NCBI RefSeq assembly: GCF_032460525.1
Contig: NZ_CP135963.1
Location: 868,001 to 932,000, forward strand
DNA from: Geodermatophilus sp. DSM 44513
Lineage (GTDB): Bacteria; Actinomycetota; Actinomycetes; Mycobacteriales; Geodermatophilaceae
Direction: 5' to 3'
Length of the DNA: 64,000 nucleotides
Shown here: positions 40,067-56,312 of the stretch, in pieces
Numbering within the stretch: position 1 is the first letter of the stretch
Layout of the letters: each line of letters begins with the position of its first letter
Notes under the pieces: model-generated
What the model saw: only the letters and a program-made list of their open reading frames with translations
Told to the model about the DNA's origin: nothing
Database searches by the model: none
Translations under genes and position numbers: made by a program

Positions 40067-41173
40067 TCAGCCGCTGGTGCCGTCGCGCTCCACCGCCGGG
40101 GGCCGAGGGGCAGCCGCCGGCGGGGAGAGCTCGGGGGGCCGGGGCAGCTCGGCCGGGCGCAGCGTGCGCACCGTCGCCTCGACCGGCTCGGGCGTGGGCA
40201 CCGGTGACTCCGCGACCCCCAGGTCGTCGAACCGGCGGGCGGCGACCAGCACCGAGCTCTCGTAGGAGCCGACCGTCTCGTTGAAGCGGGTCAGCGTCGA
40301 GGACAGCGCCGACCCCAGCCGGGTGAGGTGCCCGGACAGCGTGCTGAGCCGGGCGTGCAGCCGGCGGCCCACCTCGAGCACCTGGTCGGCGTCGCGGGCC
40401 AGCCGCTCCTGCCGCCAGGAGTGGGCGACGGTGCGCAGCAGCGCGAGCAGCGTGCTGGGGGTGGCCAGCACGACGTCGCGGGCGAACCCGTGCTCCAGCA
40501 GGCCGGGCTCGGCCTCCAGCGCGGTGGTGAGGAACCCGTCGGAGGGCACGAACAGCACGGTGAACGGTGCTGCCGGGCGGAACGCGGTGGGGTAGCGGCG
40601 GGCGGCGAGGGCGTCGACGTGGGTGCGCAGCTGGCGGGCGTGCGCGGCCACCCGCTCCGCGCGCACGCCGGCGTCCTCGGCCTGCACCGCCTCGATGTAG
40701 CCGGTGAACGGCACCTTGGCGTCGACCACCACCTGCCGGCCGTCGGACAGGGTCACCACGAGGTCCGGGCGCACCCCCGCGCCGGCGTCGTTGGTGCCGG
40801 AGGGCTGCTCGACGAAGTCGCAGTGCTCCAGCAGCCCGGCGACCTCGACCACCCGGCGCAGCTGCACCTCGCCCCAGCGGCCGCGCACGTGCGGGGTGCG
40901 CAGCGCGGTCACCAGCGCGGCGGTCTCCTGCCGGAGCATCGCCGAGGTCTGCCCGACAGTGCCCATCTGCTCGCGCAGCTCGCCGTGTGCGGTGGCGCGG
41001 TCCCGCTCGATGCCGGCCAGCAGCCGGTGCAGGTGGTCCAGCGACTCGTGCACCGGCTCCAGGCCCTCGTCGGCCGGCCGGGTGCGGGCGACCAGCGCGA
41101 CGACGCCGAGGGTGACCGCGGTGGCCAGCAGCGCGCCGAGGACGAGGCCGGTGAGCAGCGAGACGGCGTCCAC
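40067..41173 (-). CDS. rmuC: RmuC-family DNA recombination protein
   Basis: RmuC proteins limit DNA rearrangements and are thought to be nucleases. The 368-residue protein has an N-terminal membrane helix (SLLTGLVLGALLATAVTLGVVALV), a coiled coil, and the RmuC domain (VRGRWGEVQLRRVVEVAGLLEHCDF; GVRPDLVVTLSDGRQVVVDAKVPFTGYIEA, with the Asp/Lys nuclease-fold residues; FVPSDGFLTTALE; DVVLATPSTLLALLRTVAHSWRQE), then a Pro-rich tail. GTG 41173. It lies between the DUF6542 gene and the repair genes. Confidence 0.92.
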   Translation of the reverse strand: MDAVSLLTGLVLGALLATAVTLGVVALVARTRPADEGLEPVHESLDHLHRLLAGIERDRATAHGELREQMGTVGQTSAMLRQETAALVTALRTPHVRGRWGEVQLRRVVEVAGLLEHCDFVEQPSGTNDAGAGVRPDLVVTLSDGRQVVVDAKVPFTGYIEAVQAEDAGVRAERVAAHARQLRTHVDALAARRYPTAFRPAAPFTVLFVPSDGFLTTALEAEPGLLEHGFARDVVLATPSTLLALLRTVAHSWRQERLARDADQVLEVGRRLHARLSTLSGHLTRLGSALSSTLTRFNETVGSYESSVLVAARRFDDLGVAESPVPTPEPVEATVRTLRPAELPRPPELSPPAAAPRPPAVERDGTSG

Positions 41174-41187
41174 ACGCAGAGGGTGCC

Positions 41188-41796
41188 TCAGGGGAGAGAC
41201 GATCCTGCGGATGGCGCGACCAGCGGTCGGCCCCCGTGCAGGGGCCCACCGCGAGCATGCGAGTGGTGGGGGGCACGGGGGTCCTTCTCGGGGGCGTGCG
41301 CCGCCTCGTGGTCGAGCAGCCAGCGCTTGACCGGCGTCCCCCAGCGGAAGCCGCCCAGGCCGCCGTCGGAGCCGAGCACCCGGTGGCAGGGGACGAACAG
41401 CGCCGCGGCGTTGCGGGCGCAGGCGTTGGCCGCCGCGCGCACCGCCGCCGGCCGGCCGCAGCGCGCGGCGAAGGCGGCGTAGGTGTCCGGCGTGCCGGCC
41501 GGGACGGTGCGCAGGACCTGCCAGGCGTCCTCGAGGAAGGGCCCGGAGCGCTGGCGCACCGGCACGCCGTCGACGGCGGACACGTCCCCGGCGACGAACG
41601 CGGCGACCGCGTCGAGCACGGGCAGGTGCCCGGCCGGCTGCACCTCCGCCGGGCGCAGCGAGCGGTGGACGACGGGCAGCAGCTCGCCGACGTCGGCGGT
41701 CCAGCCGCTGGCGAGCACGGTGCCGTCCGGGTCGACGACCACGGTGAACGGTCCTGGCGGCGTGTCCAGGGTGGCGGTGCGGGCGGGTGCGGTCAC
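41188..41796 (-). CDS. ogt: Methylated-DNA-protein cysteine methyltransferase with repeat-encoded tail
   Basis: Removes alkyl groups from O6-alkylguanine by transfer to its own cysteine. The 202-residue protein has the catalytic LFVPCHRVLGSDGGLGGFRWG (Cys137) and the helix-turn-helix region (GTPDTYAAFAARCGRPAAVRAAANACARN). The family ends near residue 168; residues about 171-190 are encoded by a dispersed inverted repeat (41229-41287), giving a non-native tail. The GTG at 41796 overlaps the ada-alkA stop (GTGA), so the two repair genes are coupled. Confidence 0.92.
   Translation of the reverse strand: MTAPARTATLDTPPGPFTVVVDPDGTVLASGWTADVGELLPVVHRSLRPAEVQPAGHLPVLDAVAAFVAGDVSAVDGVPVRQRSGPFLEDAWQVLRTVPAGTPDTYAAFAARCGRPAAVRAAANACARNAAALFVPCHRVLGSDGGLGGFRWGTPVKRWLLDHEAAHAPEKDPRAPHHSHARGGPLHGGRPLVAPSAGSSLP
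41229..41287. repeat. Dispersed inverted-repeat element, copy F, inside the ogt reading frame
   Basis: Outer stem GGCCCCCGTGC / GCACGGGGGTCC, loop GCGAGCATGCGAGT. Here the element follows the conserved ogt sequence without a stop codon, so it is translated. Confidence 0.88.
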
Positions 41797-43286
41797 GAGG
41801 CACTCCGATCGGGGGTGGTGGCGAGCGGGCGGGTGAACAGGGCCGGTGCGGCCAGGGCCCACAGGTGCATGACGGCGTAGGACCGCCACGGCCGCCAGCG
41901 GGTCGCGGCGTCGGCGTCGGAGCTGCCGAGAGCGGCCAGGGAGCGGCGCAGCGCCAGGTCGCCGGGCAGCCACACGTCGGGGTCGCCCAGCCCGCGCATC
42001 GCGACCACCGCGGCCGTCCACGGGCCGATGCCGCGGACGGCGAGCAACGAGCGGCCGGCCTCCGCGCGGTCGGCGCCCGGGTCCAGCGTCACCGCCCCGG
42101 TGTCCAGTGCCTCGGCCAGCGCGTGCACGGTGCGCCGGCGCGCGCCGGTCAGGCCCACGGCGGTCAGGTCGGCGTCGACGAGGGCGGCCGGCCAGGGGAA
42201 GGCGTGGGTCAGCGTGCCGACCGGCTCCGGCAGCGGGGTGCCGGCGGCGCGCAGCAGCCGGGCGGTGAGGGTGCGAGCGCCGGCCACCGAGACCTGCTGG
42301 CCCAGGACGGCGCGGACGGCGAGCTCTGCGGCGTCCGGCGCGGCGGGCACCCGGCGGCCGGGTGCGGCGGCGACCGACGCGGCCAGCGCCGGGTCGTCGC
42401 CGAGGACGCCGTCGACCGCGGCCGGGTCGGCGTCGAGGTCCAGCGTCCGGCGGCAGCGGGCCACCGCCGTCCCGAGGTCGCGCAGGGCGGTGAGCTGCAG
42501 CCGGGCGGTCACCGCAGGGCCGCCGTCCGCGGCGGGGGAGAGGTGCACGACGCCGGGGCCGTGCGGCAGGTCCAGCACGCGGGAGAACGTCGTCCCGTCC
42601 CACTCCTCCAGGCCGGGGACGGCGTGCGCGCCGAGGAAGAGCAGCACCTCGGCGGCCTCGTACGGGGCGCGGGCGGCCAGCCGCAGGGTCAGCCGGCCCG
42701 GTGTGCCGGCCGGGGCCGTGGCGCGGGTGCGGCGCAGCCCGGTCGGGGTGGTGGCGAAGACCTCGCGCACGGTGTCGTTGAACTGCCGGATGCTGGCGAA
42801 CCCCGCGGCGAAGGCGACGTCGGACACCGGCAGGTCGGTGGTCTCCAGCAGCAGCCGGGCGGTCTGCGCGCGCTGGGCGCGGGCCAGCGCGAGCGGACCG
42901 ACACCGAGCTCGCCGACCAGGAGCCGGTGCAGCTGGCGCTCGGAGTAGCCCAGCCGCGCGGCCAGCCCCGGGACGCCGGAGCGCTCGACCTCGCCGTCGC
43001 CGATCAGCCGGACGGCGCGGGCGACGACGTCGGCGCGCACGTCCCACTCCGGCGACCCCGGGACCGCGTCGGGCCGGCAGCGGCGGCAGGCGCGGTAGCC
43101 GGCGCCCTGCGCGGCCGCCGCGGTGGAGAAGAAGGAGACGTTGCCGGGCAGCGGCGTGCGGGCCGGGCAGGACGGGCGGCAGTAGATGCCGGTGGTGGCG
43201 ACCGCGGTGACGAACCAGCCGTCGAAGCGCGCGTCGCGGCTGGCCACCGCCCGGTAGCAGCGCTCGGGGTCCAGCGAGGAGGTCAC
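41793..43286 (-). CDS. Ada-AlkA fusion: alkylation-response regulator and 3-methyladenine glycosylase
   Basis: A 497-residue protein with three parts. Residues 1-75 are the Ada zinc domain with four cysteines (Cys36, Cys40, Cys67, Cys70 in YCRPSC and YRACRRC), which takes methyl groups from phosphotriesters. Residues about 80-175 are an AraC-type HTH (GVPGLAARLGYSERQLHRLLVGELGVGPLALARAQRAQTARLLL). Residues about 195-497 are AlkA with the HhH-GPD motif (GRSLLAVRGIGPWTAAVVAMRGLGDPDVWLPGDLALRRSL, Asp present). GTG 43286. It is coupled to ogt, making an alkylation repair operon. Confidence 0.95.
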   Translation of the reverse strand: MTSSLDPERCYRAVASRDARFDGWFVTAVATTGIYCRPSCPARTPLPGNVSFFSTAAAAQGAGYRACRRCRPDAVPGSPEWDVRADVVARAVRLIGDGEVERSGVPGLAARLGYSERQLHRLLVGELGVGPLALARAQRAQTARLLLETTDLPVSDVAFAAGFASIRQFNDTVREVFATTPTGLRRTRATAPAGTPGRLTLRLAARAPYEAAEVLLFLGAHAVPGLEEWDGTTFSRVLDLPHGPGVVHLSPAADGGPAVTARLQLTALRDLGTAVARCRRTLDLDADPAAVDGVLGDDPALAASVAAAPGRRVPAAPDAAELAVRAVLGQQVSVAGARTLTARLLRAAGTPLPEPVGTLTHAFPWPAALVDADLTAVGLTGARRRTVHALAEALDTGAVTLDPGADRAEAGRSLLAVRGIGPWTAAVVAMRGLGDPDVWLPGDLALRRSLAALGSSDADAATRWRPWRSYAVMHLWALAAPALFTRPLATTPDRSAS

Positions 43287-45978: not shown

Positions 45979-46908
45979 TCAGAACGGTTGCTGCGCCCGC
46001 CAGGCGGCCCACGCGCTCGCGACCACCGACCGCAGGTCGCGGCGGGCGCGGAACCCCAGCTCGCGGGCGGTCCGGTCGGCCGCGGCCAGCCGCCCCGGCG
46101 CGCCGGGGCGCGCGGCGACGACCTCGGGCTCGGTGTCGGCGCCGGTGACCTCACCGACCAGGCGCAGCACCTCCCGGTCGCTGCTGGGCTCGCCGCGGCC
46201 GACGTCGTGGGTGCCGCCCGGAGAGCCGGCGGTCAGCGCGCGCACCGCGGCCAGGTGGGCGTCGGCGACGTCGGCGACGTGCACCAGGTCGCGCACCGGG
46301 CTGCCGTCGGGGGTCGGGTGGCCGTCGCCGTGCAGCACCGGCCGCCGGCCCTCGTCCACCGCCCGGAAGACCGGTGCGAGGGGACCGGTCGGGCTCCGGT
46401 CACCGAGCTCCGGCGTCGCGGCCCCGGCCACCTCGCAGCAGCGCAGCACGACGGCGGCGCAGCCCCACGCCGCGCCGTCGCGCACCGCCCACTCCGCGGC
46501 CAGCGCCGTGCGGCCGTAGGGGGAGCGCGGGGTCCCGTCGGCCTCCGGGTACGCGGCCGCGGTCGAGGACAGCACGACGCGCGCCACTCCCTTGGCGCGG
46601 CAGCCCTCCAGCAGCGCGACGGTGCCCTCGACGTTCTCCGTCCAGTACGGCAGCGGGTCGGCTCCGGACTCCTCGGCCCCCGCCCGCCCGGCCAGGTGGA
46701 CGACGCCCTGCACGGCGTGCTCGCGCAGCACCCGGCGGACCAGCCCGCGGTCCCGGACCGAGCCGACGACCAGCGGCACCGCCACCAGCCGCGCCGGGTC
46801 GCCGGTGGACAGGTCGTCGAGGACGACGACCCGCTCGCCGGCCGCGGCCATGGCGCGCACGACGTGCGCCCCGACGTACCCGGCGCCGCCGGTGACCAGC
46901 CAGCTCAC
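45979..46908 (-). CDS. NAD-dependent sugar epimerase/dehydratase (extended SDR, GalE-like) lacking the catalytic lysine
   Basis: A 309-residue Rossmann protein, last of the ten-gene operon. It has the cofactor motif GGAGYVG (7-13), VVHLAGRAG, the catalytic Ser/Thr region LSSTAAAY (113-120), Tyr131 in SPYGRTALAAEW and the GalE-like DGSPVRDLVHVADVADAH (201-218). The family motif is YxxxK; here position 135 is Ala (Tyr131-Gly-Arg-Thr-Ala), so the lysine that positions NAD and lowers the Tyr pKa is absent. GTG 46908 overlaps the PIG-L stop. It may be a reduced or altered enzyme on a nucleotide sugar. Confidence 0.85.
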   Translation of the reverse strand: MSWLVTGGAGYVGAHVVRAMAAAGERVVVLDDLSTGDPARLVAVPLVVGSVRDRGLVRRVLREHAVQGVVHLAGRAGAEESGADPLPYWTENVEGTVALLEGCRAKGVARVVLSSTAAAYPEADGTPRSPYGRTALAAEWAVRDGAAWGCAAVVLRCCEVAGAATPELGDRSPTGPLAPVFRAVDEGRRPVLHGDGHPTPDGSPVRDLVHVADVADAHLAAVRALTAGSPGGTHDVGRGEPSSDREVLRLVGEVTGADTEPEVVAARPGAPGRLAAADRTARELGFRARRDLRSVVASAWAAWRAQQPF

Positions 46909-47630
46909 CGGGCCGCCCCGTCCGCCGCACCGGCCACCACTGCCCGCGCCCGCGCCCCGCCCAGCAGCACCTCGGGCAGCCCGGCCAGCGCCGCCCGCAT
47001 CTGCGTCGCGCCGCCGAACTGGAAGCCGAGCTGGGTGGCGTAGCGGGCGCACGCCTCGCCGCGCCGCTCGAGGTCCTGCGGCAGTCGGACCTGGGCCAGC
47101 CCCGCCGGCAGGTCGGGTCCGGGGACGGCGGCCGGGTCGCGCAGCACGTAGGGGCTGTCGCGCCACCACAGCACCGGCCGGTCCAGCCCCGCCACCGCCC
47201 GCAGCACCTGCAGGTGGTCGACGTGCCCCCCGAGCGCCTGCGGGGCCAGCCACAGGTCGGCGTCCTGCCGGGTGAGCTCCTCGGCCACCGAGCGCCAGAC
47301 GTCGTCCCCGGGGTGCACGCCGGCGAACAGGTCCGGCGCGCTGGTGTAGCCCCGGTGCGGCGCCTCCAGCAGCCCCAGGTGCACCGGGGTCGCACCGAGC
47401 ACGGCCATCGCGGCGGCGTCCTCGGCGCGGCGCAGCGCCAGGTAGTCGACGTCGGGGCCCAGCCCCTTGTCCAGCTGGCAGGCCAGCGCGAAGCCGGCCG
47501 GGTTTGGCACGGTGGCGGTGAAGCAGGTGAGCACGGTGACCTCGTGCCCGGCGTCGGCCAGCGCGGCCAGCGTGCCGCCGACGCTGAACGCCGCGTCGTC
47601 CAGGTGCGGGCTGACCGCGAGCACCCTCAC
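46905..47630 (-). CDS. PIG-L (LmbE) family deacetylase, MshB-like
   Basis: Zinc-dependent N-deacetylase fold. The 241-residue protein has the metal motif SPHLDDAAFSVGG (His9, Asp11, Asp12) and the second motif GGHVDHLQVL (His136, Asp138, His139), both complete. Family members remove acetyl from GlcNAc-inositol (MshB), GlcNAc-PI and related glycosides. The adjacent GT4 gene and the inositol-synthase-like gene of the same operon suggest a GlcNAc-inositol-like substrate; that is inference. GTG 47630 overlaps the glycosyltransferase stop (GTGA). Confidence 0.92.
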   Translation of the reverse strand: MRVLAVSPHLDDAAFSVGGTLAALADAGHEVTVLTCFTATVPNPAGFALACQLDKGLGPDVDYLALRRAEDAAAMAVLGATPVHLGLLEAPHRGYTSAPDLFAGVHPGDDVWRSVAEELTRQDADLWLAPQALGGHVDHLQVLRAVAGLDRPVLWWRDSPYVLRDPAAVPGPDLPAGLAQVRLPQDLERRGEACARYATQLGFQFGGATQMRAALAGLPEVLLGGARARAVVAGAADGAAR

Positions 47631-48835
47631 AGCAGGTGCGCGGCCGAGCGGAACCGGCACGACAGGTCCGGCCCCGACGGCATCGACCAGTCCGCGGACG
47701 GCGTGCTGCCGGCCACCTCGCCGTAGACCGCGTCGATGGAGCGCGCCAGCACCGGCCAGGAGTAGAGCCGGCGCACCTCCTCCAGCGCGGTGGTCGCCAG
47801 CCGGGCGCGCAGGTCGCCGTCGGCGAGCAGCCGGTGCAGCGCCGCCCGCAGCCCGGCGACGTCGCCCGGGGCGTGCAGCAGCCCGTTCTCGTCGTGCCGC
47901 AGGCAGTCCACGACCCCGACGCTGTCGGTGCTCACCGTCGGCAGCCCGCTGGCCATCGCCTCCAGCAGCGTGTTGCTGAACCCCTCGCTGTAGGTGGGGC
48001 TGACGAACACGTCGGCCGAGCGGTAGACCTCCGGCGCCTCGTCGGGCGGCACGTAGCCGAGGAACGTCGTCCGCCCGTCGGCCCGCGCGCGGGCCTCGTC
48101 GAGGTCCGGGCCGATGCCGGAGACCACCAGCCGGACGCCGTCGGGCAGGGCCTCCAGCAGGTCCAGCACGCCCTTGCGGCGGTCCACCCGGCCGTGGAAC
48201 AGCAGCACCGGCGGCTCGCGCAGCGCGCCCAGCGGCCGCTCGGCCGGGGTGAACCGCCGGGTGTCGGTGGCGCCCGGGACGATGGTGAACCGCGCCGGGT
48301 CCGACCCCAGGTTGCCGACCACCTCGTCGCGGAAGCTGGCGCTGCCGATCAGCACTGCCGAGGAGGCGTCCACCACTGTGCGCATCGCCTCGGCGTGGGT
48401 GGTGCAGCAGGTGCCCACCCAGTGCCCGTCGCCGCCCTGGATGCTCACCACCGCCGGCAGCCCGGTCTCCCGCGCCGCGGCCAGCACCGCCAGGCCCGGG
48501 GGGTAGCCGTACTGGGCGTGCAGCACGTCGAAGGGCCGCTCGGCGTGCAGGTCCAGCACCGTCCGGACGATCTCCGCGATGTCACCCTCCCAGTCGGCGG
48601 GGGCGACGGTCTCCCCGCGGCTGGGCAGCGCGTGCACCTGCACGCCGGCCGGGACCCGGGCCGGCGGGGGCGGGCCGCCGCCGTAGACCCGGGTGCCGGC
48701 CTCGTCGTCCCGGTACTGGCTGACCAGCACCACCTCGTGGCCAAGGGCCACCAGCTCGCGCAGCAGGTTCTCCGCGTAGACGCTCATCCCGCTCACCGCC
48801 GGCCAGTAGCGCCGGCTGACGAAGCACACCCTCAC
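47627..48835 (-). CDS. GT4-family glycosyltransferase (GT-B fold), MshA-like
   Basis: A 402-residue retaining glycosyltransferase. The N-domain has VCFVSRRYWPAVSGMSVYAENLLRELVALGHEVVLVS and DVLHAQYGYPPGLAVLAAARETGLPAVVSIQGGD. The C-domain has RFTIVPGATDTRRFTP, VLLFHGRVDRRKGVLDLLEALPDGVRLVVSG and the nucleotide-sugar motif SPTYSEGFSNTLLEAMASGLPTVST with the EX7E glutamates. The donor cannot be read from sequence; GlcNAc is a guess from the PIG-L neighbour. GTG 48835 is coupled to the upstream isomerase gene. Confidence 0.93.
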   Translation of the reverse strand: MRVCFVSRRYWPAVSGMSVYAENLLRELVALGHEVVLVSQYRDDEAGTRVYGGGPPPPARVPAGVQVHALPSRGETVAPADWEGDIAEIVRTVLDLHAERPFDVLHAQYGYPPGLAVLAAARETGLPAVVSIQGGDGHWVGTCCTTHAEAMRTVVDASSAVLIGSASFRDEVVGNLGSDPARFTIVPGATDTRRFTPAERPLGALREPPVLLFHGRVDRRKGVLDLLEALPDGVRLVVSGIGPDLDEARARADGRTTFLGYVPPDEAPEVYRSADVFVSPTYSEGFSNTLLEAMASGLPTVSTDSVGVVDCLRHDENGLLHAPGDVAGLRAALHRLLADGDLRARLATTALEEVRRLYSWPVLARSIDAVYGEVAGSTPSADWSMPSGPDLSCRFRSAAHLL

Positions 48836-49683
48836 GCCGCCGCCTCCGCCGCTGCCTCGGCATCCCGCAGCGTGGCCATCGCCCGCGGCACCATCTCGTG
48901 CGCCCGGTGCCCGTCGCGGGACAGCTCCAGGGTGACCAGCCGCTCGTACCCGACGTCCCGCAGCGCCCGCAGCACGGCCGGCAGGTCGACGTCCCCCTCG
49001 TCCAGCGGCAGGTGGTCGTGCACGCCGCGGCGCATGCCCTCGACGGCGACCGTGCCCAGGCGCGGCGCGAACGCCGTCACCGCCTCCTGCGGCTCGTACC
49101 CGCCGGCGACGACGCAGTGCCCGGTGTCCAGGGCCAGCGAGATGCCGGGGGCCTCGGCGGCGAGGGCGGCCCAGCCGTCGCAGTCCTCGACCAGCATGCC
49201 CGGCTCCGGCTCCACGGCCAGCGCGTAGGACCGCCCGCCGTGGCTGTCGACCAGCGCGCGCACCCCGTCGACCACCCAGCCCCACGCCGCGTCGCGGTCC
49301 ACCCCCGGCTTCGGCACGCCGGCCCAGAAGCTCACCGCCTCCGCGCCCAGCACCTCGGCCAGGTCGCAGGCCAGCCGCAGGTAGGCCAGCCGCCGCGCCC
49401 GGCCCTCGGCGTCGGCGGTGACCAGCGTCGGCTCGTGCTTGACCCGCGGGTCGAGCAGGTACCGCGCGCCGGTCTCCACGACCACGCCCAGGCCCAGCTC
49501 GTCGCAGCGCGCCCGCACCTCCTCCGCCCGGGCGAAGGCGTCCGGCGCGAACGGGTCGAGGTGGACGACGTCCAGGGTGAGCGCCACCCCCGCGTAGCCG
49601 GTGTCGGCCAGGAACGGCAGCGCGTCGGAGAGCCGGTGCGAGGTGAGCCCGTTGGTGTTGTAGGCGTACCGCAGGCCGGTCAC
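48832..49683 (-). CDS. Sugar-phosphate isomerase/epimerase-like TIM barrel (xylose-isomerase-like)
   Basis: A 283-residue AP-endonuclease-2 fold TIM barrel. Barrel-strand motifs include YAYNTNGLTSHRLSDALPFLADTGYAGVALTLDVVHLDPF, LGLGVVVETGARYLL, GAEAVSFWAG, LAVEPEPGMLVED (metal-binding Glu), ISLALDTGHCVVAGG (Asp and His) and ERLVTLELSRDGHRAHE. IolE (2-keto-inositol dehydratase) and inosose isomerases share this fold, which fits the inositol theme, but the substrate is unknown. GTG 49683, coupled to ycaO. Confidence 0.88.
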   Translation of the reverse strand: MTGLRYAYNTNGLTSHRLSDALPFLADTGYAGVALTLDVVHLDPFAPDAFARAEEVRARCDELGLGVVVETGARYLLDPRVKHEPTLVTADAEGRARRLAYLRLACDLAEVLGAEAVSFWAGVPKPGVDRDAAWGWVVDGVRALVDSHGGRSYALAVEPEPGMLVEDCDGWAALAAEAPGISLALDTGHCVVAGGYEPQEAVTAFAPRLGTVAVEGMRRGVHDHLPLDEGDVDLPAVLRALRDVGYERLVTLELSRDGHRAHEMVPRAMATLRDAEAAAEAAA

Positions 49684-51143
49684 CGGGCCAGCACCTCGGC
49701 GACGGTGTGCCGGCCGGGCTCGCGGTACAGCGCGTAGAGCGCGCCCACCCGCCGGGCGGCGCCGGCGCGGTCGAACCAGGCCGGGCCGCCGAGGCGCTCC
49801 TCGGCGTCGGCGGTCAGGTGCACCCGCGCCCAGCCGCCCGGGTCGGCCCCCACGACGGCGAGCCCCTCGTCGTGCTCGACCAGCCGCCGCACCCCGCGCT
49901 CGCCGATCCGTCCGTAGGACATCGTCTCCACCTCCAGGCCGGGCACCAGCACCTTGGCCGCCACGGCGTCGCCGGCCGAGGGCTGCAGCTCGACCAGCAC
50001 GTCGAGGCCGGCGGCCTGCACCGCGCCGGTGACGGAGGCGTGCAGGTCCTCCCCGGACCAGGTGGGCAGGTCGGTGAGCGCCACGCTCGACCGCCGGGAC
50101 AGCACCGAGTCCTGCAGCAGGTCGACCAGCGCGGCGGTGCCCATCCGGGTCCACTCGAGCATCGCCTGCAGCGCGCGGTCCTCCTCGACCAGCCGTTCCG
50201 GCGGGTGCCCGCCGCGCCAGTGCTCCAGGTAGCCGGCCGGCGTGGCGGGGAGGACGACGTCGTAGGGGCCGTGCATGAACGCCTTGCGGCTGCGCGCGGA
50301 GGCGAACTCGTGCAGCGCCTTGCGGACGGCGGTGTCCCGGTCGGGGTGCGCGGCCTCCCCGCATGCGGTGGCCATCACCGGCACCGGCTCGGAGAGGTCC
50401 CGCGAGCAGCCGACCGCGTACACGTCGACCACGCCGAAGTCCGTCGCCGCGAGCTTCACCACCACGTCGATGCCGGCGGCGTCCAGCCGGTCGAGCAGGG
50501 CCAGCGCGTCGGGGTCGCGCAGGCCGGCCAGGTCGACGACCACGCCGCGGTCCATCGCGCGGAAGGCCGTCGCGTTGCCGTCGCGCTGCAGCACCTCCAG
50601 CAGCGCGTGCGCCACCGCCCGGTCGGCGTCGAACGCCGCGCCCTGCCCGTTGGTGATGACCGTGGTGAGCCAGCCACCGGGCGGCGGAGCGCCGGGCAGG
50701 TCGTCGGGCGCCGACGCGACCAGTTCCGCGGGCACCAGCACCGTCTCGCCGTCGCGCTGCCGGGTCATCGGCAGCCACTGCAGCGGCCGGTCGTCGGCGT
50801 AGGCGCTGCCGGCCTCCAGGCACAGGGTGCGCGGGTCGGCCACCCGGTCGCGGCCGTGCCGCCGGGCCACCTCGGTGTACGAGCCCTGCTCCCGCTGCAC
50901 GCCCTGGTGGGCGCGCAGCGACAGGGCCATCTCGGCCATCTCGCCCAGCGCGCCGGTGCGCGCCTCCTCGCGGGTGGCGCCGTAGCCCAGCCCGCTGCCG
51001 CCGGGGTGCGCCGGCGTCGGGGCCAGGACGGCGCTGTGCAGCGGCACGTCGAGGACGTCGAGGCCCTCGATGGCGAACTCGTCGACCGGGGTGGGGAAGG
51101 AGTCCCGGTACCGCTGCGAGGGCGTGACCTCCGTGGTGGTCAC
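49680..51143 (-). CDS. YcaO-domain ATP-dependent backbone/carboxylate-activating enzyme
   Basis: YcaO proteins use ATP to phosphorylate an amide or carboxylate, forming azolines, thioamides or amidines. The 487-residue protein shows all three ATP-site segments: TGALGEMAEMALS (Glu68, Glu71), ITNGQGAAFDADRAVAHALLEVLQRDG (Glu183, Gln186, Asp188) and ATACGEAAHPDRDTAVRKALHEFASAR (Glu279, Arg284). The C-terminus (YREPGRHTVAEVLAR) lacks the PxPxP end of azoline-forming YcaOs, and no TfuA partner, E1-like partner or short precursor gene was found. Its neighbours are sugar and inositol enzymes, so a non-ribosomal substrate is plausible. Confidence 0.9.
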   Translation of the reverse strand: MTTTEVTPSQRYRDSFPTPVDEFAIEGLDVLDVPLHSAVLAPTPAHPGGSGLGYGATREEARTGALGEMAEMALSLRAHQGVQREQGSYTEVARRHGRDRVADPRTLCLEAGSAYADDRPLQWLPMTRQRDGETVLVPAELVASAPDDLPGAPPPGGWLTTVITNGQGAAFDADRAVAHALLEVLQRDGNATAFRAMDRGVVVDLAGLRDPDALALLDRLDAAGIDVVVKLAATDFGVVDVYAVGCSRDLSEPVPVMATACGEAAHPDRDTAVRKALHEFASARSRKAFMHGPYDVVLPATPAGYLEHWRGGHPPERLVEEDRALQAMLEWTRMGTAALVDLLQDSVLSRRSSVALTDLPTWSGEDLHASVTGAVQAAGLDVLVELQPSAGDAVAAKVLVPGLEVETMSYGRIGERGVRRLVEHDEGLAVVGADPGGWARVHLTADAEERLGGPAWFDRAGAARRVGALYALYREPGRHTVAEVLAR

Positions 51144-52099
51144 AGCTCGGCCAGCGGGACGGGCGCGGCGTCCGGCGGGCCGGACAGCAGCCGCTGCACC
51201 AGGTGCACGACGTGGTCGGTGGTGACCCCCGGGACCATCTCGAACGGCGTGGTCACGGTCCCGAAGTCGAGCACCCCGACGACGGCCAGCATCTCCCGCA
51301 GCTCGCCGTGCGACAGCGGGATCTGCGCGTGGAAGGCCTTGTGCGCGGACAGCGCCACCGGTGCCCCGGCCTCGTCCAGGTCGACCTTGAGGGAGTCGCC
51401 GCAGAACAGGATGCCGCGGCGGGAGTCGTGCAGCACCGAGTGCCCGGGGAAGTGCCCGCCGGTGCGGTGCAGGGTGAGGTCGGGGGCCAGCGTGAGGACG
51501 TCGTCGGCCGGCCAGGTCACCCGGAAGGCCTTGGTCCAGGGCAGGTCGTGCACGTTGACGCACACCACCCGCGGCTCCAGCTCCAGCTGCAGCTGCCACA
51601 GCGCCCCGTAGCCGTGCACGTGGGAGGACGCCAGCACCGGGAAGCCGCCGTGTACCTCGGCCATGCGGCGCAGCTCGGCGAGCATGTCGGCGGTGTACCA
51701 GGGGGCGCACTCGAAGCCGACCAGGCCGATGTCGGTCTCGATCACCCAGCCGCGGCTGTCCAGCCCGAAGCGCGGCTCGGTGCCGAACTCGGTGACGCCG
51801 TCGACCGGGGCCGGCCGCCAGGAGCCGGTGACCAGCTCGTCGGCCTGCTTGGCGGTGACGAACTCGAAGCCGTGCTCGGGCAGTGCGTTGCGCACGTCGG
51901 CGCAGACCGGGCAGACCAGCGGGCCCGGTGCCGGCCAGCGCTGCCAGTGCCCGCAGTTGGTGCAGGCGTAGGCGGGCAGGTCCGGCAGCAGGCCGCGGTA
52001 GGGGTTGGTGTCGACCTGGCTGGTTCCGTGCCGCGCGCCGTCGTCAGCGGCGGGGTCGGTGGGCCGGTCGATCGAGCCGGGCACGTCGGGCGGGGTCAC
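51140..52099 (-). CDS. Metallo-beta-lactamase-fold protein with N-terminal zinc ribbon
   Basis: A 319-residue protein. Residues 44-68 form a rubredoxin-like zinc ribbon (ACTNCGHWQRWPAPGPLVCPVC; Cys46, Cys49, Cys63, Cys66). Residues about 75-310 are a metallo-beta-lactamase fold with a variant first motif SSHVHGYGALWQ (His160, His162), GGHFPGHSVLH (His216, His220) and CGDSLKVD (Asp235). The family's HxHxDH is reduced to HVHGYG, so it may bind one metal. I start at GTG 52099, overlapping the upstream stop; the longer frame adds a Pro/Arg-rich stretch. It could be a hydrolase acting on the YcaO product. Confidence 0.88.
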   Translation of the reverse strand: MTPPDVPGSIDRPTDPAADDGARHGTSQVDTNPYRGLLPDLPAYACTNCGHWQRWPAPGPLVCPVCADVRNALPEHGFEFVTAKQADELVTGSWRPAPVDGVTEFGTEPRFGLDSRGWVIETDIGLVGFECAPWYTADMLAELRRMAEVHGGFPVLASSHVHGYGALWQLQLELEPRVVCVNVHDLPWTKAFRVTWPADDVLTLAPDLTLHRTGGHFPGHSVLHDSRRGILFCGDSLKVDLDEAGAPVALSAHKAFHAQIPLSHGELREMLAVVGVLDFGTVTTPFEMVPGVTTDHVVHLVQRLLSGPPDAAPVPLAEL

Positions 52100-53082
52100 G
52101 CGGGGCCTCCGGAGAGAGCGGTGAGGAGCAGGCGGTGCAGGGCGAGGTCGCGGGCGGGGGGGTACGGCCACCGCGCGCGGCCCGCGACCGCGGCGGTGAA
52201 GGCGGCGAACTGCGCCTGGAACGGCGGGGTGTCGGCGAACGGCACGTCGACGGGGTCGGGGCGGTGCAGCGTGAGCGAGCCTCCCGCCGTCTGGCCCATC
52301 GTGTCGACGGCGACGGCCATGCCGCGGGTGCCGACCACCTCCAGCCGGCGGCGGGGCAGCGCGTCGGGGGTGTTGAACGCGACGTGCAGGCTGACCAGCA
52401 CGCCGCCGTCGGTGCTGCCGGTGAGCAGTGCGCCGTCGTCCACGCCGTAGTCGTGCACCCGGGTCTGCAGCCGCGCCGACAGCTCGACCACGTCCTCGCC
52501 GAGCAGCACGCCGGCCAGGTCCAGGCCGTGCGGGGCCAGGTCGATCGCGGCACCCCCGCCGGCGCGGGCGGGATCGACCCGCCAGTTGTCGTGCGGGCGG
52601 CCGTCCGGCGTCCAGTCACCGGGCAGCCAGCAGCAGTAGACGATCCGGACGGCGGTGACCGTGCCCAGCTCGGGCACCAGCTCGCGCAGCCGCACGTGCG
52701 CGGGGTGCCAGCGCTGGTCGTAGGCCGTCCCGAGCAGGACGCCGGCGTCGCGGGCGGCGACCACCATCGCGTCGGCGTCCGCGACGTCGGCGGCCAGCGG
52801 CTTCTCGCACAGCACCGCCTTCCCCGCCGCGGCGGCGGCCGCCACCAGCGCCCGGTGGCCGGCGTTGGGGACGGCGACGTAGACGGCGTCCAGCCCCGGG
52901 GTGGCGAGGAACCCGGCCAGGTCGGTGCTGCGGTGCGCGCCCTCGACCGGCACCCGGTCCAGGGCCGCGGGGTCGCGGTCGTGCAGTGCGACGACCCGGG
53001 CGCCCTCGACGGCCAGCAGCGCGGGCAGCGCGTGGTCGCGGGCCACCCAGCCGCACCCGGCGATGCCCCAGCCGACGCTCAC
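52096..53082 (-). CDS. Gfo/Idh/MocA-family NAD(P)-dependent oxidoreductase
   Basis: A 328-residue two-domain oxidoreductase with the Rossmann motif GIAGCGWVARDHALPAL (6-22), the family signature VLCEKPLAADVADADAMV (catalytic Lys in EKP), and a C-terminal domain with NWRVDPARAGGGAAIDLAPHGLDLAGVLLGE, where Asp and His act on the sugar. Inositol 2-dehydrogenase is a founding member, which fits an operon with an inositol-phosphate-synthase-like enzyme. The GTG at 53082 is the only non-overlapping start in the operon; 91 bases with a palindromic element precede it. Confidence 0.92.
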   Translation of the reverse strand: MSVGWGIAGCGWVARDHALPALLAVEGARVVALHDRDPAALDRVPVEGAHRSTDLAGFLATPGLDAVYVAVPNAGHRALVAAAAAAGKAVLCEKPLAADVADADAMVVAARDAGVLLGTAYDQRWHPAHVRLRELVPELGTVTAVRIVYCCWLPGDWTPDGRPHDNWRVDPARAGGGAAIDLAPHGLDLAGVLLGEDVVELSARLQTRVHDYGVDDGALLTGSTDGGVLVSLHVAFNTPDALPRRRLEVVGTRGMAVAVDTMGQTAGGSLTLHRPDPVDVPFADTPPFQAQFAAFTAAVAGRARWPYPPARDLALHRLLLTALSGGPA

Positions 53083-53097
53083 CGTGCCCCTCTCCGC

Positions 53098-53159
53098 GGC
53101 GAGATCGGCGATCTCGCCCGGTTGCGGGCCCGGGAGCGTGCGGGATCGGCGATCTCGCC
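53098..53159. repeat. Palindromic GAGATCG-S-CGATCTC element, copy 2, inside the YcaO operon
   Basis: Two palindromes (centred near 53108 and 53151) that also pair with each other (53098-53113 with 53144-53159, one central mismatch). It is the same element as at 5308-5365 and lies in the only real spacer of the operon. Confidence 0.75.
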
Positions 53160-53173
53160 GGGACGCCCGACGC

Positions 53174-54199
53174 TCACCAGGCGTCCGGGAGGTCGACCAG
53201 CAGCCGGCGGCGGGCCGCGTCGGCCGGCAGGGGGTCCGGCCAGCGGGCCGGCAGGTACCCCGACCGCGGGCCGTACTCGGTGGCGTAGCGCTCGCTGGGC
53301 CAGCGCAGCTCCCCGTCGCGGTACAGCGGGTTCTGCCGCAGCGGCGGCAGCGGCTCGCCGAGGTCGACCGGGGCGGGGGTCAGCGGGTCGCCGGCGACCA
53401 GCGCGACCGCCTCGCTGCCGTGCAGCTCGGCGGCGGGGGCCGGTCGCGGCGGGCGGCCGGCCAGCAGCGCGCCGGTCAGCTCGGCGTCGTCGTAGAGCAG
53501 GTCGGTGCCGAGCACCGCGGCGTAGCCCTCCGGGGTCAGCGGCTGCCCGTGCGGGTCGGCCACGTGCGCGTGCCCGATGACGACGGTGCCGCCGTCCCCG
53601 GCCAGCGCGCGCATCGCGGCGGCCGCGGCCGGCTTGTCGCGCAGGAAGTAGAAGGCGTCGTGGCACAGCACGTACGCCGGCGCGGGCACGCCCAGCTCGG
53701 GGGTGGCGGTGACGTCGGCGCACACGTAGCGGGCGGCCGGGCAGACGAACCGGCGGGCCAGCCAGAGCTTCGCCCAGACGACGTCGACGCCGGTGAGGTC
53801 GGTGCAGCCGCGGCGGGCCAGCTCGCGCAGGTGGGTGCCGGTGCCGCAGGCGACGTCGACCACCGGCCGGCCGCCGGGCCAGTGCTGCTGCAGCAGCGCC
53901 AGCCCGGCCAGGTGGGTGGGGTCGGACCAGCGGTGGGCGAAGTAGTCGGCGACCCGGCCCATGCCGAGCAGCGCCATCGCCTCGCGCAGGGTCGCCGCGG
54001 CGGGGACGCGGGCCAGCTGCTCGGCCGGCGGGGGCGGCTCGGTCCACCAGTCGTCGGAGTCGGCCAGCAGCAGCACGCGGGCGCGGTCGACCTCGCCGTG
54101 CGCCAGCAGGCCGGTCACCTCCGCGCGCAGCTCGTCGCGCCCCGCGCGGGCGAACGGGATGCCGTCGACCACCGGGACGGCGGGGGCAGCAGCACTCAC
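53174..54199 (-). CDS. Class I SAM-dependent methyltransferase
   Basis: A 341-residue protein. Residues 1-90 are a helical N-terminal region (GRDELRAEVTGLLAHGEVDRARVLLLADSDDWWTEPPPPAEQL). The SAM-binding motif I VVDVACGTGTHLRELARRG and the later VLCHDAFYFLRDKPAAAAAMRALAGDGGTVVIGH define the fold. The C-terminal 100 residues are unusual and end LLVDLPDAW. The acceptor is unknown; a cyclitol or sugar oxygen is possible by context. It starts with GTG 54199, overlapping the upstream stop. Confidence 0.87.
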   Translation of the reverse strand: MSAAAPAVPVVDGIPFARAGRDELRAEVTGLLAHGEVDRARVLLLADSDDWWTEPPPPAEQLARVPAAATLREAMALLGMGRVADYFAHRWSDPTHLAGLALLQQHWPGGRPVVDVACGTGTHLRELARRGCTDLTGVDVVWAKLWLARRFVCPAARYVCADVTATPELGVPAPAYVLCHDAFYFLRDKPAAAAAMRALAGDGGTVVIGHAHVADPHGQPLTPEGYAAVLGTDLLYDDAELTGALLAGRPPRPAPAAELHGSEAVALVAGDPLTPAPVDLGEPLPPLRQNPLYRDGELRWPSERYATEYGPRSGYLPARWPDPLPADAARRRLLVDLPDAW

Positions 54200-55095
54200 A
54201 GGCCGGCCGCCGCCAGCACGTCGAGGTGGAAGGCCTGCACCGGCCCGGCGTGCACCAGCTCCAGGTCGTCCAGCGCCTGTGACGCGGTGAACGCCGCGGC
54301 CCGGGCGTGGTGGTGCACCTGCAGCACCCGGTCCAGGACGTCGGCGGCGTGGAAGGCCTGCGCCTCCGGGGCCCCGGCGTCCGCGCGCAGCCGTAGCACG
54401 GTGCGCAGCCGCTGCGCCAGCTCCTCCGGCAGCGCGGCGAGCTCCCGTTCCTCCAGCGTGGTGATCACCCGGTCCAGCGCGCCGCCCAGCAGCACCTCAC
54501 CGGCGAACCCGGCGTCGGGCAGCTGCACGTTGTGCAGGTGGTGGGCGATCCCGACGAGGAACGGCGCGACCGGGTCGGCGCCGAACACCGGCGCCACCAG
54601 CACCCCGTAGACCGCCACGGTGAGGCAGTGGTCGCCGTGGCTCTCCGGCGGCTCGACGACCACCCGCGCCCGGCCCGGGGCGGTGGCCCCCGCCCGGGGC
54701 TGGGCGTTGAGCCGCGCGACCAGGGCCGGCGGCTCCGGCGCGGGGACGGCGAGCGGCAGCGCCGCGCGCAGCCGCGCCCGCAGCCCGGCGTCCAGGGGCC
54801 CGGCCACCTCGTCGAACCCGCGCCGCAGCACCTCCAGCGCCTCGTCGTCGGACAGGCCGGCCGTGCGCAGCACCGCGCCGTCGACGCCGGCCAGCCGGGC
54901 ACGGGCCACGGCGGCGGCGGTCTCCGAGAGCGCGACGGCGGCCGGGTCCTCACCGGCCACCAGCCGCCCCCAGGTGCGGGCGAAGGCCTGCTCGGCCAGC
55001 GACCCGGGGGCGCCGGCCACGCGGACCCGCTTGGCGTCGCCGACCTCGGTCAGCAGCGGGCGGAGCTCGGCGAGGGCGGGGGAGCCGCCCGTCAC
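54196..55095 (-). CDS. HD-superfamily-like, histidine-rich protein next to the inositol-phosphate-synthase gene
   Basis: A 299-residue protein not assigned to a named family. Residues about 150-265 hold a metal-site pattern: PPESHGDHCLTVAVYGVLV (His153, His156), GIAHHLHNVQLPDAGFAGE (His185, His186, His188, Asp194), HAADVLDRVLQVHHHARAAAFT (His249, Asp252, His261-263). The helices and spacing resemble HD-domain phosphohydrolases, with the HD pair read as HH. The myo-inositol oxygenase family is also HD-type, so an oxygenase acting on an inositol compound is one idea. N-terminal 110 residues are helical. GTG 55095, coupled to the upstream gene. Confidence 0.6.
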   Translation of the reverse strand: MTGGSPALAELRPLLTEVGDAKRVRVAGAPGSLAEQAFARTWGRLVAGEDPAAVALSETAAAVARARLAGVDGAVLRTAGLSDDEALEVLRRGFDEVAGPLDAGLRARLRAALPLAVPAPEPPALVARLNAQPRAGATAPGRARVVVEPPESHGDHCLTVAVYGVLVAPVFGADPVAPFLVGIAHHLHNVQLPDAGFAGEVLLGGALDRVITTLEERELAALPEELAQRLRTVLRLRADAGAPEAQAFHAADVLDRVLQVHHHARAAAFTASQALDDLELVHAGPVQAFHLDVLAAAGL

Positions 55096-56312
55096 CGGCC
55101 GGTCGAGCCGGTGGCCAGCCAGTCCAGCAGCACCTGCTCCTGGCGGTGCAGGGCGTGCTCGGGCGTGCCGCCGTCCGGGGTCATCGGCGCCTTGAAGAAC
55201 CAGCCGAGGTGGGTCTGCACGCCACCCTGTCCGCGCTGCTGGGCCAGGTCGGTGAGCCGGGCCAGCTCGATGGCCAGCGGCGCGGCCAGGATCGAGTCGC
55301 GGCACTGGAAGTCGACCTTGATCTGCATGCGCTGGCCGAGGAAGCCGACCAGGTCGATGGCGTCCCAGGCCTCCTTCTGGTCCCCGCGCGGGCGGTAGTA
55401 GTCGATGCGCACCACGTGGTCCTCGACCGGGTAGCCGAGGATGGAGTCCAGCACGCTGCCCTTGGTCTGCAGCTTGCTCTCCAGGGAGGCCGGGTCGTCG
55501 AGGGCCAGGCCGTCGCGGTTGCCCAGGATGTTGGTGGAATACCAGCCCTCGACGGTGAGCGCGCGGCTGCGGAAGGCCGGGGCGAGCACCGTCTTCATCA
55601 TCGTCTGGCCGGTCTTGCCGTCCTTGCCGGCGACCGGTACCCCGCGCAGCTCGGCGAGCTCGACGAGGGCCGGCACGTCGGCGGCCAGCGACGGCGTGAA
55701 GTTGGCGTAGCCGACGCCCTCGGCGATCGCGGCGTAGGCGTACACCATCGACGGGGTGATCGAGCGGTCGTCGTCGTCCAGGGCGAGCTCGAACGCCTCC
55801 GCGGACTGCAGCGCCGGTGCCGACGGGTCCGGCCAGCGCTCGGTGGAGGCCAGGTTGACCAGCACCAGGCCGTCGAGCCGCTGCTCCTCGCGGAAGCGGC
55901 GCAGGTCGGCCCGCACGGCGTCGACCTGGGCGCGGCGGGTCTCGGCCAGCACCACGTTGCCACCGGTCACGTTGCGGCAGAAGTCGGCGTCCCCGGCCGC
56001 CGGCCACGGCGTCACCGACGACAGGTACGGCCCGGCCTGGGCGAGCTGGTGGTGGTCCAGGACGCCGTGCTGTTCCGCGGCCTTGCGCAGGTCGCTGCCG
56101 TCGAGGTCCCAGCCGCCGACCACCAGGTCGGCGTACTCCACCAGCCCGGTGGCCGCCTCGACGGGACGGCCGTCGACCTGCAGGCCCGCCAGCGGCAGCC
56201 CGGCGGTGTCCCCCCCGGCGCGCAGCAGTTCCAGCCCGGCCACGGCGGTCGTCGCGACCGCTCCTCCGAGGCCGACGACGGCCATCCCGACCCGTCGTGG
56301 TGCACCGGACAA
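55092..56312 (-). CDS. Inositol-3-phosphate synthase-like enzyme, first gene of the YcaO operon
   Basis: Inositol-3-phosphate synthase turns glucose 6-phosphate into inositol phosphate with NAD. The 406-residue protein has the Rossmann motif VVGLGGAVATTAVAG (12-26), the NAD and active-site motif VAGKDGKTGQTMMKT (227-241), TNILGNRDGLALDD (260-273), KVDFQCRDS (332-340) and the family C-terminus. The KxGQT and LGNxDG forms recall eukaryote-type synthases more than mycobacterial Ino1. I start at TTG 56312, because GAGGGGGAC lies just before it and the Rossmann strand follows; upstream starts add unrelated residues. Confidence 0.88.
   Translation of the reverse strand: MSGAPRRVGMAVVGLGGAVATTAVAGLELLRAGGDTAGLPLAGLQVDGRPVEAATGLVEYADLVVGGWDLDGSDLRKAAEQHGVLDHHQLAQAGPYLSSVTPWPAAGDADFCRNVTGGNVVLAETRRAQVDAVRADLRRFREEQRLDGLVLVNLASTERWPDPSAPALQSAEAFELALDDDDRSITPSMVYAYAAIAEGVGYANFTPSLAADVPALVELAELRGVPVAGKDGKTGQTMMKTVLAPAFRSRALTVEGWYSTNILGNRDGLALDDPASLESKLQTKGSVLDSILGYPVEDHVVRIDYYRPRGDQKEAWDAIDLVGFLGQRMQIKVDFQCRDSILAAPLAIELARLTDLAQQRGQGGVQTHLGWFFKAPMTPDGGTPEHALHRQEQVLLDWLATGSTGR

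Follow-up and report, generated by a model that had tools for sequence, protein, structure and literature searches.

What might a bacterium make with an operon that joins a homologue of myo-inositol-phosphate synthase (INO), a family 4 glycosyltransferase (GT4) and a PIG-L deacetylase to a YcaO enzyme? Such an operon lies on the minus strand of Geodermatophilus sp. DSM 44513, within the 64,000-nucleotide stretch of contig NZ_CP135963.1 analysed here (forward-strand positions 868,001 to 932,000; hereafter the window, whose own numbering is used throughout). Its further members encode an HD-fold protein (HD), a methyltransferase (MT), a Gfo/Idh/MocA dehydrogenase (GFO), a metallo-beta-lactamase-fold protein (MBL), a xylose-isomerase-like TIM barrel (TIM) and a GalE-like SDR protein. 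The conserved unit consists of nine genes, INO-HD-MT-GFO-MBL-YcaO-TIM-GT4-PIG-L; the tenth, SDR, is local. The balance tips slightly towards these nine genes being a pathway, shared across phyla and probably mobile, for a small cyclitol–aminosugar compound that is soluble in water. That the pathway makes a cyclitol–aminosugar small molecule is, as a separate claim, likely.

A nine-gene unit recurs across phyla

A window-trained gene caller places ten genes end to end on the minus strand at 45979-56285. Six of the nine junctions of this array overlap by 4 bases, and the remaining three leave gaps of 2 (GT4/PIG-L), 23 (HD/MT) and 91 bases (MT/GFO). The nine core genes thus overlap or almost touch, and 91 bases is the largest gap inside the operon. 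An alternative GTG start at 54199 would make MT overlap HD as well, and the INO start called here lies 27 bases inside the one taken in the initial annotation, which had been made from the same sequence. Rfam and tRNA scans of the window returned no matches. The host genome measures 4.63 Mb and has a single PF02624 match, the cluster YcaO, whose closest relative found is that of Geodermatophilus pulveris (92% identity).

To place the unit in other genomes, YcaO served as the anchor for collecting loci. Scanning genomes with a profile of this protein confirmed 278 loci; the best 80 were analysed, and most of these hold the cluster. The gene tally covers 85 of 121 YcaO locus records, chosen for flanks of 6 kb or more upstream and 4.7 kb or more downstream; L001, L006, L136 and L137 were excluded before counting and L065 for short flanks, and some of the 121 records overlap. 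A cluster was counted where at least two of INO, HD, GFO, MBL, GT4 and PIG-L lay near YcaO. By this definition the cluster is present at 75 of the 85 loci, most with the whole set, which indicates that the association of the genes is not due to chance. Over these 75 loci, 23 of which are Geodermatophilaceae so that rows are not independent, INO occurs in 66, EboD in 1, HD in 74, MT in 65, GFO in 74, MBL in 63, TIM in 62, and GT4 and PIG-L in 69 each. The unit is found, mostly in the same order, in Actinomycetota (including Rubrobacter, among the best 80 of the 278 loci), Alphaproteobacteria, Bacteroidota, Myxococcota, Planctomycetota and Armatimonadota.

The initial annotation had read all ten genes as one translational unit. 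The operon and its gene families are confirmed, and the cluster is clearly not confined to this strain, but the ten-gene set reduces to nine. In some Geodermatophilaceae SDR stands after PIG-L in the same orientation; others have it inverted, and lineages outside the family do not have it at this position. In line with the accompanying remark that no described pathway with this set was known to its author, no description of the nine-gene set was found in the open-licence PMC literature, among the matches listed.

The unit also occurs on plasmids. A tblastn search with INO against plasmids gave 62-65% matches in Roseomonas, Methylobacterium and Hymenobacter. The Roseomonas plasmid carries all nine core genes in unchanged order, the Hymenobacter plasmid carries eight, without MT, and two Methylobacterium plasmids carry eight, without MBL. 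Among genomes, the YcaO occurs unevenly: 41 of 112 carry it in Geodermatophilaceae, 11 of 12 in the Kineococcus family, 7 of 296 in a class sample (five with the pathway), 1 of 246 in Planctomycetota and 1 of 251 in Armatimonadota; each of the last two is the already known cluster of EboD type described below. This patchy occurrence, together with the four plasmid copies, suggests horizontal spread, and the pathway is probably mobile.

The same figures bear on whether the product could be a diffusible aminocyclitol antibiotic or signal. The combination of a dehydrogenase and a methyltransferase with cyclitol and aminosugar enzymes would suit such a compound, as would the occurrence of the cluster in Streptomyces, Micromonospora and Corallococcus. 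However, the conserved core holds no exporter or resistance gene, and the frequencies in Geodermatophilaceae and the Kineococcus family look more like those of a resident trait. We regard this origin as improbable.

Several features of the distribution weigh against the proposed nine-gene pathway. MBL or TIM stands in a different order in some actinobacteria: TIM lies between MBL and YcaO in L143 and L145, and MBL follows TIM in L043. Six Kineococcus loci lack INO, and in all six the TIM gene lies on the opposite strand and its product has an identity of only 32-35%; PF07994 has no match in any of five Kineococcus cluster genomes. INO is likewise not nearby in Goekera (L036) and Pyxidicoccus (L091). 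MBL is missing from all ten Methylobacterium loci (L003, L005, L082-L085, L087, L088, L090 and L092), and one core step would therefore be dispensable or replaced there. MT is undetected in 10 of the 75 cluster loci (Hymenobacter, Quadrisphaera, Armatimonadetes, Pyxidicoccus, one Corallococcus and five Kineococcus). In Actinomycetospora the pathway lies in two pieces, INO to YcaO and, elsewhere, TIM-GT4-PIG-L, the second piece having been sought in one genome.

Other irregularities concern copy number and decay. In Pyxidicoccus fallax (L091), HD is a 92-residue remnant (8407-8685) and INO, MT and MBL are undetected, with GFO, YcaO, TIM, GT4 and PIG-L kept. On the Hymenobacter plasmid (L004, 16214-22561), GFO is annotated as two coding sequences and GT4 matches across two frames, reflecting decay or sequencing error. 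Several Myxococcaceae clusters have two or three tandem YcaO genes (L059, 1-4850; L066; L070), and the Armatimonadetes cluster L068 has two. A Frankineae metagenome bin (G413) seems to hold two partial pathway copies on different contigs (L039 and L150), with some 7 kb between YcaO and INO in one of them, representing either two copies or a mixed bin.

Predicted enzymes retain their active-site residues

Domains were named with Pfam and NCBIfam profiles, and conserved residues were counted in alignments of cluster homologues. These sets exclude matches below 38% identity, below 70% of the query length or with internal stops, and many near-copies remain in them.

Table 1 Genes of the operon in the window, with lengths and best-supporting profiles
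Feature	Position	Strand	Length (aa, amino acids)	Profile match or remark
INO, myo-inositol-phosphate-synthase homologue	55092..56285	-	397	PF07994 216.7 bits, PF01658 120.3 bits
HD-fold protein	54196..55095	-	299	HD motif altered to HH (H185-H186)
MT, class I methyltransferase	53174..54172	-	332	PF13649 38.8 bits; start uncertain
GFO, Gfo/Idh/MocA dehydrogenase	52096..53082	-	328	PF22725 87.4 bits, PF01408 77.8 bits
MBL, metallo-beta-lactamase fold	51140..52099	-	319	N-terminal four-Cys zinc ribbon
YcaO	49680..51143	-	487	PF02624 170.5 bits
TIM, xylose-isomerase-like TIM barrel	48832..49683	-	283	PF01261 112.6 bits
GT4, family 4 glycosyltransferase	47627..48835	-	402	PF13692 109.9 bits
PIG-L deacetylase	46905..47624	-	239	PF02585 55.1 bits
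SDR, GalE-like, accessory	45979..46908	-		TIGR01179 223.7 bits, under cut-off 262.3

Residues K271, K275, K304 and K365 of INO align with K274, K278, K306 and K367 of the A. fulgidus enzyme (1u1i), which we take to be its catalytic lysines. They are lysine in 71, 71, 71 and 70 of 71 sequences, one INO from an ebo cluster included. By its Pfam domains and these lysines, INO appears to fit a myo-inositol-phosphate synthase. In five other putative enzymes, such positions are conserved to a similar degree. TIM keeps E158, E160, D186, H189, H222, H224 and E253 in all 74 sequences (one ebo and one Kineococcus TIM included), and the E93-K94-P95 motif of GFO, with D181 and H185, is kept in 75-76 of 76. 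E284 and E292 of the E-x7-E motif are invariant in GT4 (73/73), as are H7, D9, D10, H134 and H137 in PIG-L (67/67). In YcaO, E183 and Q186-R187 are invariant in 91 of 91 sequences; the four solved YcaOs in the alignment have Glu at the position of Q186.

Outside the operon, the window has RmuC, Ogt-like and Ada/AlkA genes at 40067-43286, some 3-6 kb downstream of the cluster, and several Geodermatophilus loci keep them.

The putative ring-forming genes appear exchangeable with EboD

Two clusters hint at what the first steps may achieve. In the Armatimonadetes cluster L068 and the Isosphaeraceae cluster L065, INO and TIM are both absent, and the first gene encodes a sugar phosphate cyclase that matches PRK06203, which we take to be the EboD model (549 and 483 bits, respectively; cut-off 333). 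Of the 23 YcaO genomes tested, no others pass that cut-off. EboD was not detected among the ten operon proteins with Pfam and NCBIfam.

The converse arrangement occurs in ebo clusters (EboA-F). Three Streptomyces plasmid clusters (L159-L161) carry INO, a prenyltransferase and a TIM barrel beside EboA, TatD, EboE and an EboF-like gene, with no EboD visible in the stretch read. Their TIM and INO proteins are 47-49% and 39-41% identical to those of the cluster described here. A Gemmatirosa cluster (L162) contains TatD, EboF, prenyltransferase, INO and TIM. INO and TIM are thus present, with no visible EboD, in the four ebo clusters examined. On plasmids, INO lies within 6 kb of TIM in 33 of 33 TIM records read by eye, eight of whose neighbourhoods were examined beyond these two genes. 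A ScyD/ScyE-family gene stands immediately upstream of INO in two of the three Streptomyces clusters (L159, 6524-7723; L160, 5584-6786).

The simplest reading is that INO with TIM and EboD would give the same or an interchangeable ring. Because GFO stays where INO and TIM are lost, TIM is tied to INO rather than to GFO. The reaction order of the initial annotation, with the cyclitol made and then oxidised and isomerised, stays conjectural. Weighing against the exchange, the EboD-type clusters number only two, and both are on metagenome-assembled contigs with similar sample names. Kineococcus, with its divergent TIM and no INO, also departs from the pattern.

Earlier work gives this exchange a context. 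In the excerpted text of PMC5133447, EboD is placed near enzymes that use sedoheptulose 7-phosphate and, in a tree of sugar phosphate cyclases, near DDGS/EEVS. The Nostoc sunscreen scytonemin requires ebo genes, according to excerpts of PMC6282210. The word inositol has no occurrence in the main text of either paper. In the open-licence PMC literature, EboE together with inositol gave nothing related by title, and 'edengerol' gave no match.

The shared ring module raises the alternative of a surface glycoconjugate or lipid-carrier pathway with an ebo-related role, in which a cyclitol sugar is placed on a lipid or polysaccharide. Besides the INO and TIM module common to ebo clusters, PIG-L is followed in Roseomonas by a GT2 gene annotated as mdoH, and Skermanella and Aerophototrophica have MdoG- and GT2-type genes upstream. 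The remainder of the two systems differs, however. The YcaO clusters carry YcaO, GT4 and PIG-L instead of the ebo prenyltransferase EboC, EboA, the TatD-like EboB, EboE and EboF, homologues of which gave no hit above 60 bits in the YcaO loci (tblastn with L159 proteins; flanks about 5-14 kb). No lipid step is found among the ten proteins, and the importer-linked loci described next suggest a soluble compound. A glycoconjugate product is accordingly given a small share of the probability, and the likeness to ebo is confined to the cyclitol module, found as INO and TIM in four actinobacterial or Gemmatimonadota ebo clusters and as EboD in two YcaO clusters.

Related YcaOs stand beside or near sugar-type importers

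At seven loci (L046, L064, L132, L133, L140, L141 and L146), a YcaO that is 44-50% identical lies beside or near genes for a sugar-type ABC importer, namely a solute-binding protein and two permeases. Two of the hosts are Nocardioides, two belong to the Kineococcus family and three to a second genus of Geodermatophilaceae. Nine of the 41 YcaO-positive Geodermatophilaceae genomes come from one genus (48-50% identity), and its three loci examined are all of the importer type, as are at least two in the Kineococcus family. In a tree of 53 YcaO sequences, the importer-linked proteins and that of L041, where one permease is visible, form two supported clades among the cluster YcaOs. GT4 was found in none of eight genomes with a stand-alone YcaO, other pathway genes not having been searched there.

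A further family, F15, accompanies all seven importer loci and L041. From its motifs, F15 is a putative NodB-like deacetylase. It occurs in 6 of 6 orphan versus 2 of 15 cluster genomes (Fisher p 5e-4, with genomes taken as independent, which they are not). A conserved protein of about 122 residues, assigned to no family, lies beside F15 in the Nocardioides importer loci (L046, 12150-12515; L064, 12075-12443).

A YcaO linked to an importer and separated from the pathway points to a small, sugar-like, non-peptide substrate. The orphan loci may serve the salvage of a small sugar-like intermediate, and some actinobacteria seem to import the intermediate and keep only the YcaO step. Set against this, F15 adjoins the importer in three of the seven loci and YcaO in two, and is two genes off in the other two. 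Its Pfam support amounts to 19.8 bits, below the cut-off, in Nocardioides and to nothing in a Geodermatophilaceae member. The absence of the pathway from orphan genomes was judged by GT4 alone, and one of them (G427) has another PF07994 gene (139.7 bits). Other orphan contexts also exist. In a third lineage (L139, 8559-12281), the YcaO stands beside a Polysacc_deac_1 protein (33.4 bits) and an S9/esterase-like protein, with no importer seen, and in L138 it has other neighbours, among them an adenosine deaminase.

Characterised YcaOs are known to act on peptides or proteins, and the best NCBIfam matches of the cluster YcaO are to the models for the SagD cyclodehydratase and for McrA thioamidation. 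On this basis the cluster could instead make a ribosomally synthesised and post-translationally modified peptide (RiPP), with glycosylation and methylation following the action of YcaO on a ribosomal precursor. The protein does belong to the same family and conserves the acidic residues E68, E71 and E183, which we take to be ATP-site residues. Both matches are far under their cut-offs, however (TIGR03604, 77.7 versus 219.25 bits; McrA, 75.1 versus 365), and Q186 puts Gln at the E-x-x-E-R position. Neither an E1-like nor an ocin-ThiF partner is seen among the ten cluster and ten flanking window proteins, and the context is one of sugar enzymes. No gap inside the operon exceeds 91 bases, although no dedicated precursor search was run, flanks included. 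Given also the orphan YcaOs next to or close to sugar importers, a RiPP product appears very unlikely, and a non-peptide substrate for this YcaO is well favoured.

The cluster is distinct from mycothiol biosynthesis

The initial annotation had drawn a parallel between INO, GT4 and PIG-L and the Ino1-MshA-MshB trio of mycothiol. At the family level the parallel stands: inositol-phosphate synthase, GT4 and PIG-L families meet in one pathway, probably through a glucosaminyl-cyclitol intermediate. Against the mycothiol models themselves, INO scores 40.2 bits (TIGR03450, cut-off 638), GT4 68 (TIGR03449, cut-off 462.5) and PIG-L 17.6 (TIGR03445, cut-off 224.35), and we reject mycothiol as the product. 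The cluster has no MshC or MshD, as had been stated, and contains YcaO, MBL, GFO, TIM, HD and MT in addition. The host MshC (639.8 bits) is encoded at G000:C1:2271901-2273157, more than 1.3 Mb away, and a separate MshC elsewhere implies that the cluster is not that of mycothiol. MshC above the cut-off is absent from 7 of 12 cluster genomes tested. From its gene content, the cluster is independent of mycothiol.

A different low-molecular-weight thiol or thione, mycothiol- or bacillithiol-like with sulfur inserted by YcaO, would share the Ino1, MshA and MshB families. GT4 resembles BshA and MshA (70.5 and 68 bits), and a bshB1 gene adjoins the Hymenobacter cluster (L004). Yet by Pfam the cluster has neither a cysteine ligase nor an acetyltransferase, and the ten cluster proteins and their ten flanking neighbours show no sulfur-carrier or TfuA-like domain. 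With every mycothiol model far under its cut-off and the true MshC at another site in the host, we consider a thiol pathway unlikely.

Taken together, the families, the operon and the lack of MshC and MshD given in the initial annotation are retained; SDR as a core gene, likeness to mycothiol past the family level and the original reaction order are not.

Genes for repair of light damage lie near some clusters

Spore-photoproduct-lyase (SPL) genes lie less than 3 kb from the pathway in four lineages. Roseomonas (L002) has two SPL genes with one gene between, and uvsE about 10 kb off. In Rubrobacter (L055), two genes intervene; in Isosphaeraceae (L065), an SPL fragment is found at the contig end; and in Actinomycetospora (L149), the SPL gene overlaps PIG-L. 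Within one class, the SPL model TIGR03886 is present in 6 of 7 YcaO-positive versus 29 of 289 YcaO-negative genomes (p 1e-5, kinship uncorrected). Nine of ten Methylobacterium loci have a gene of the uracil-DNA glycosylase family on one flank of the cluster, and both Skermanella loci have one on the opposite flank. Methylobacterium is reported to contain UVA-absorbing compounds, among them methylobamine, and the excerpted texts that describe such compounds name no genes for them (PMC12573535 and PMC9664959).

A number of observations temper the link to light. SPL is near the cluster in 4 of about 20 lineages and in none of the examined flanks of the other 16 or so, and the SPL gene of the host is about 86 kb from the cluster. 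Two of the YcaO-positive genomes (G046 and G211) have no pathway, which leaves SPL in four of five pathway carriers, the exception being G196. Many carriers, such as Streptomyces, Micromonospora and Corallococcus, are soil bacteria. Protection against light or a related surface stress is the most likely role. Photoprotection proper remains a tentative proposal, somewhat short of an even chance, because SPL is near and not adjoining in three of the four lineages and two of the seven SPL-test genomes are without the pathway.

A model for the pathway

In the pathway we propose for a cyclitol–aminosugar compound, INO would convert glucose 6-phosphate to an inositol-type ring and TIM would reshape it; EboD would provide an equivalent ring in one step. 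GFO may oxidise or reduce the scaffold, and MT may methylate it. GT4 would then add a hexosamine, probably N-acetylglucosamine, and PIG-L would take off the acetyl group, baring an amine. Another donor for GT4 and another substrate for PIG-L could apply, which weakens the aminosugar assignment. YcaO would spend ATP to activate a carbonyl on the small molecule, and the bared amine or an outside nucleophile would attack it to form a C–N or C–S bond, as in an enaminone, amidine or thioamide. It is a guess that YcaO installs nitrogen or sulfur on a carboxylate or amide, and the amine exposed by PIG-L is a doubtful candidate for its nucleophile. HD and MBL would perform hydrolytic or tailoring steps.

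Mycosporine biosynthesis resembles such a scheme in having a cyclitol ring from a sugar phosphate, a methyltransferase and one ATP-dependent condensation. The enzymes of that pathway are DDGS, an O-methyltransferase and an ATP-grasp ligase (PMC10057719). Among the ten operon proteins, by contrast, there is no ATP-grasp ligase or DDGS-type cyclase, and the cluster adds glycosylation and deacetylation. More speculatively, the product could belong to a second, inositol-based class of sunscreen in bacteria, as a cyclohexenone or imine of mycosporine-like type that bears glucosamine. Its ring would come from INO and TIM or from EboD and be capped by MT, with YcaO replacing the ATP-grasp ligase to couple the glucosamine nitrogen. 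The UVA compounds of Methylobacterium would be a possible product, and some actinobacteria would import the precursor and finish it by YcaO alone. We think this specific version improbable.

If the cyclitol–aminosugar model is correct, YcaO chemistry would widen from peptides to sugars and cyclitols, and natural-product enzymology would gain a new branch. The exchange between INO with TIM and EboD would offer a direct handle on the substrate of EboD, and hence on the ebo clusters. The carrier genera live on leaf, rock, crust and soil surfaces. The cross-phylum spread of the unit and the presence of UV-repair genes nearby in some lineages suggest an overlooked protective metabolite of surface bacteria.

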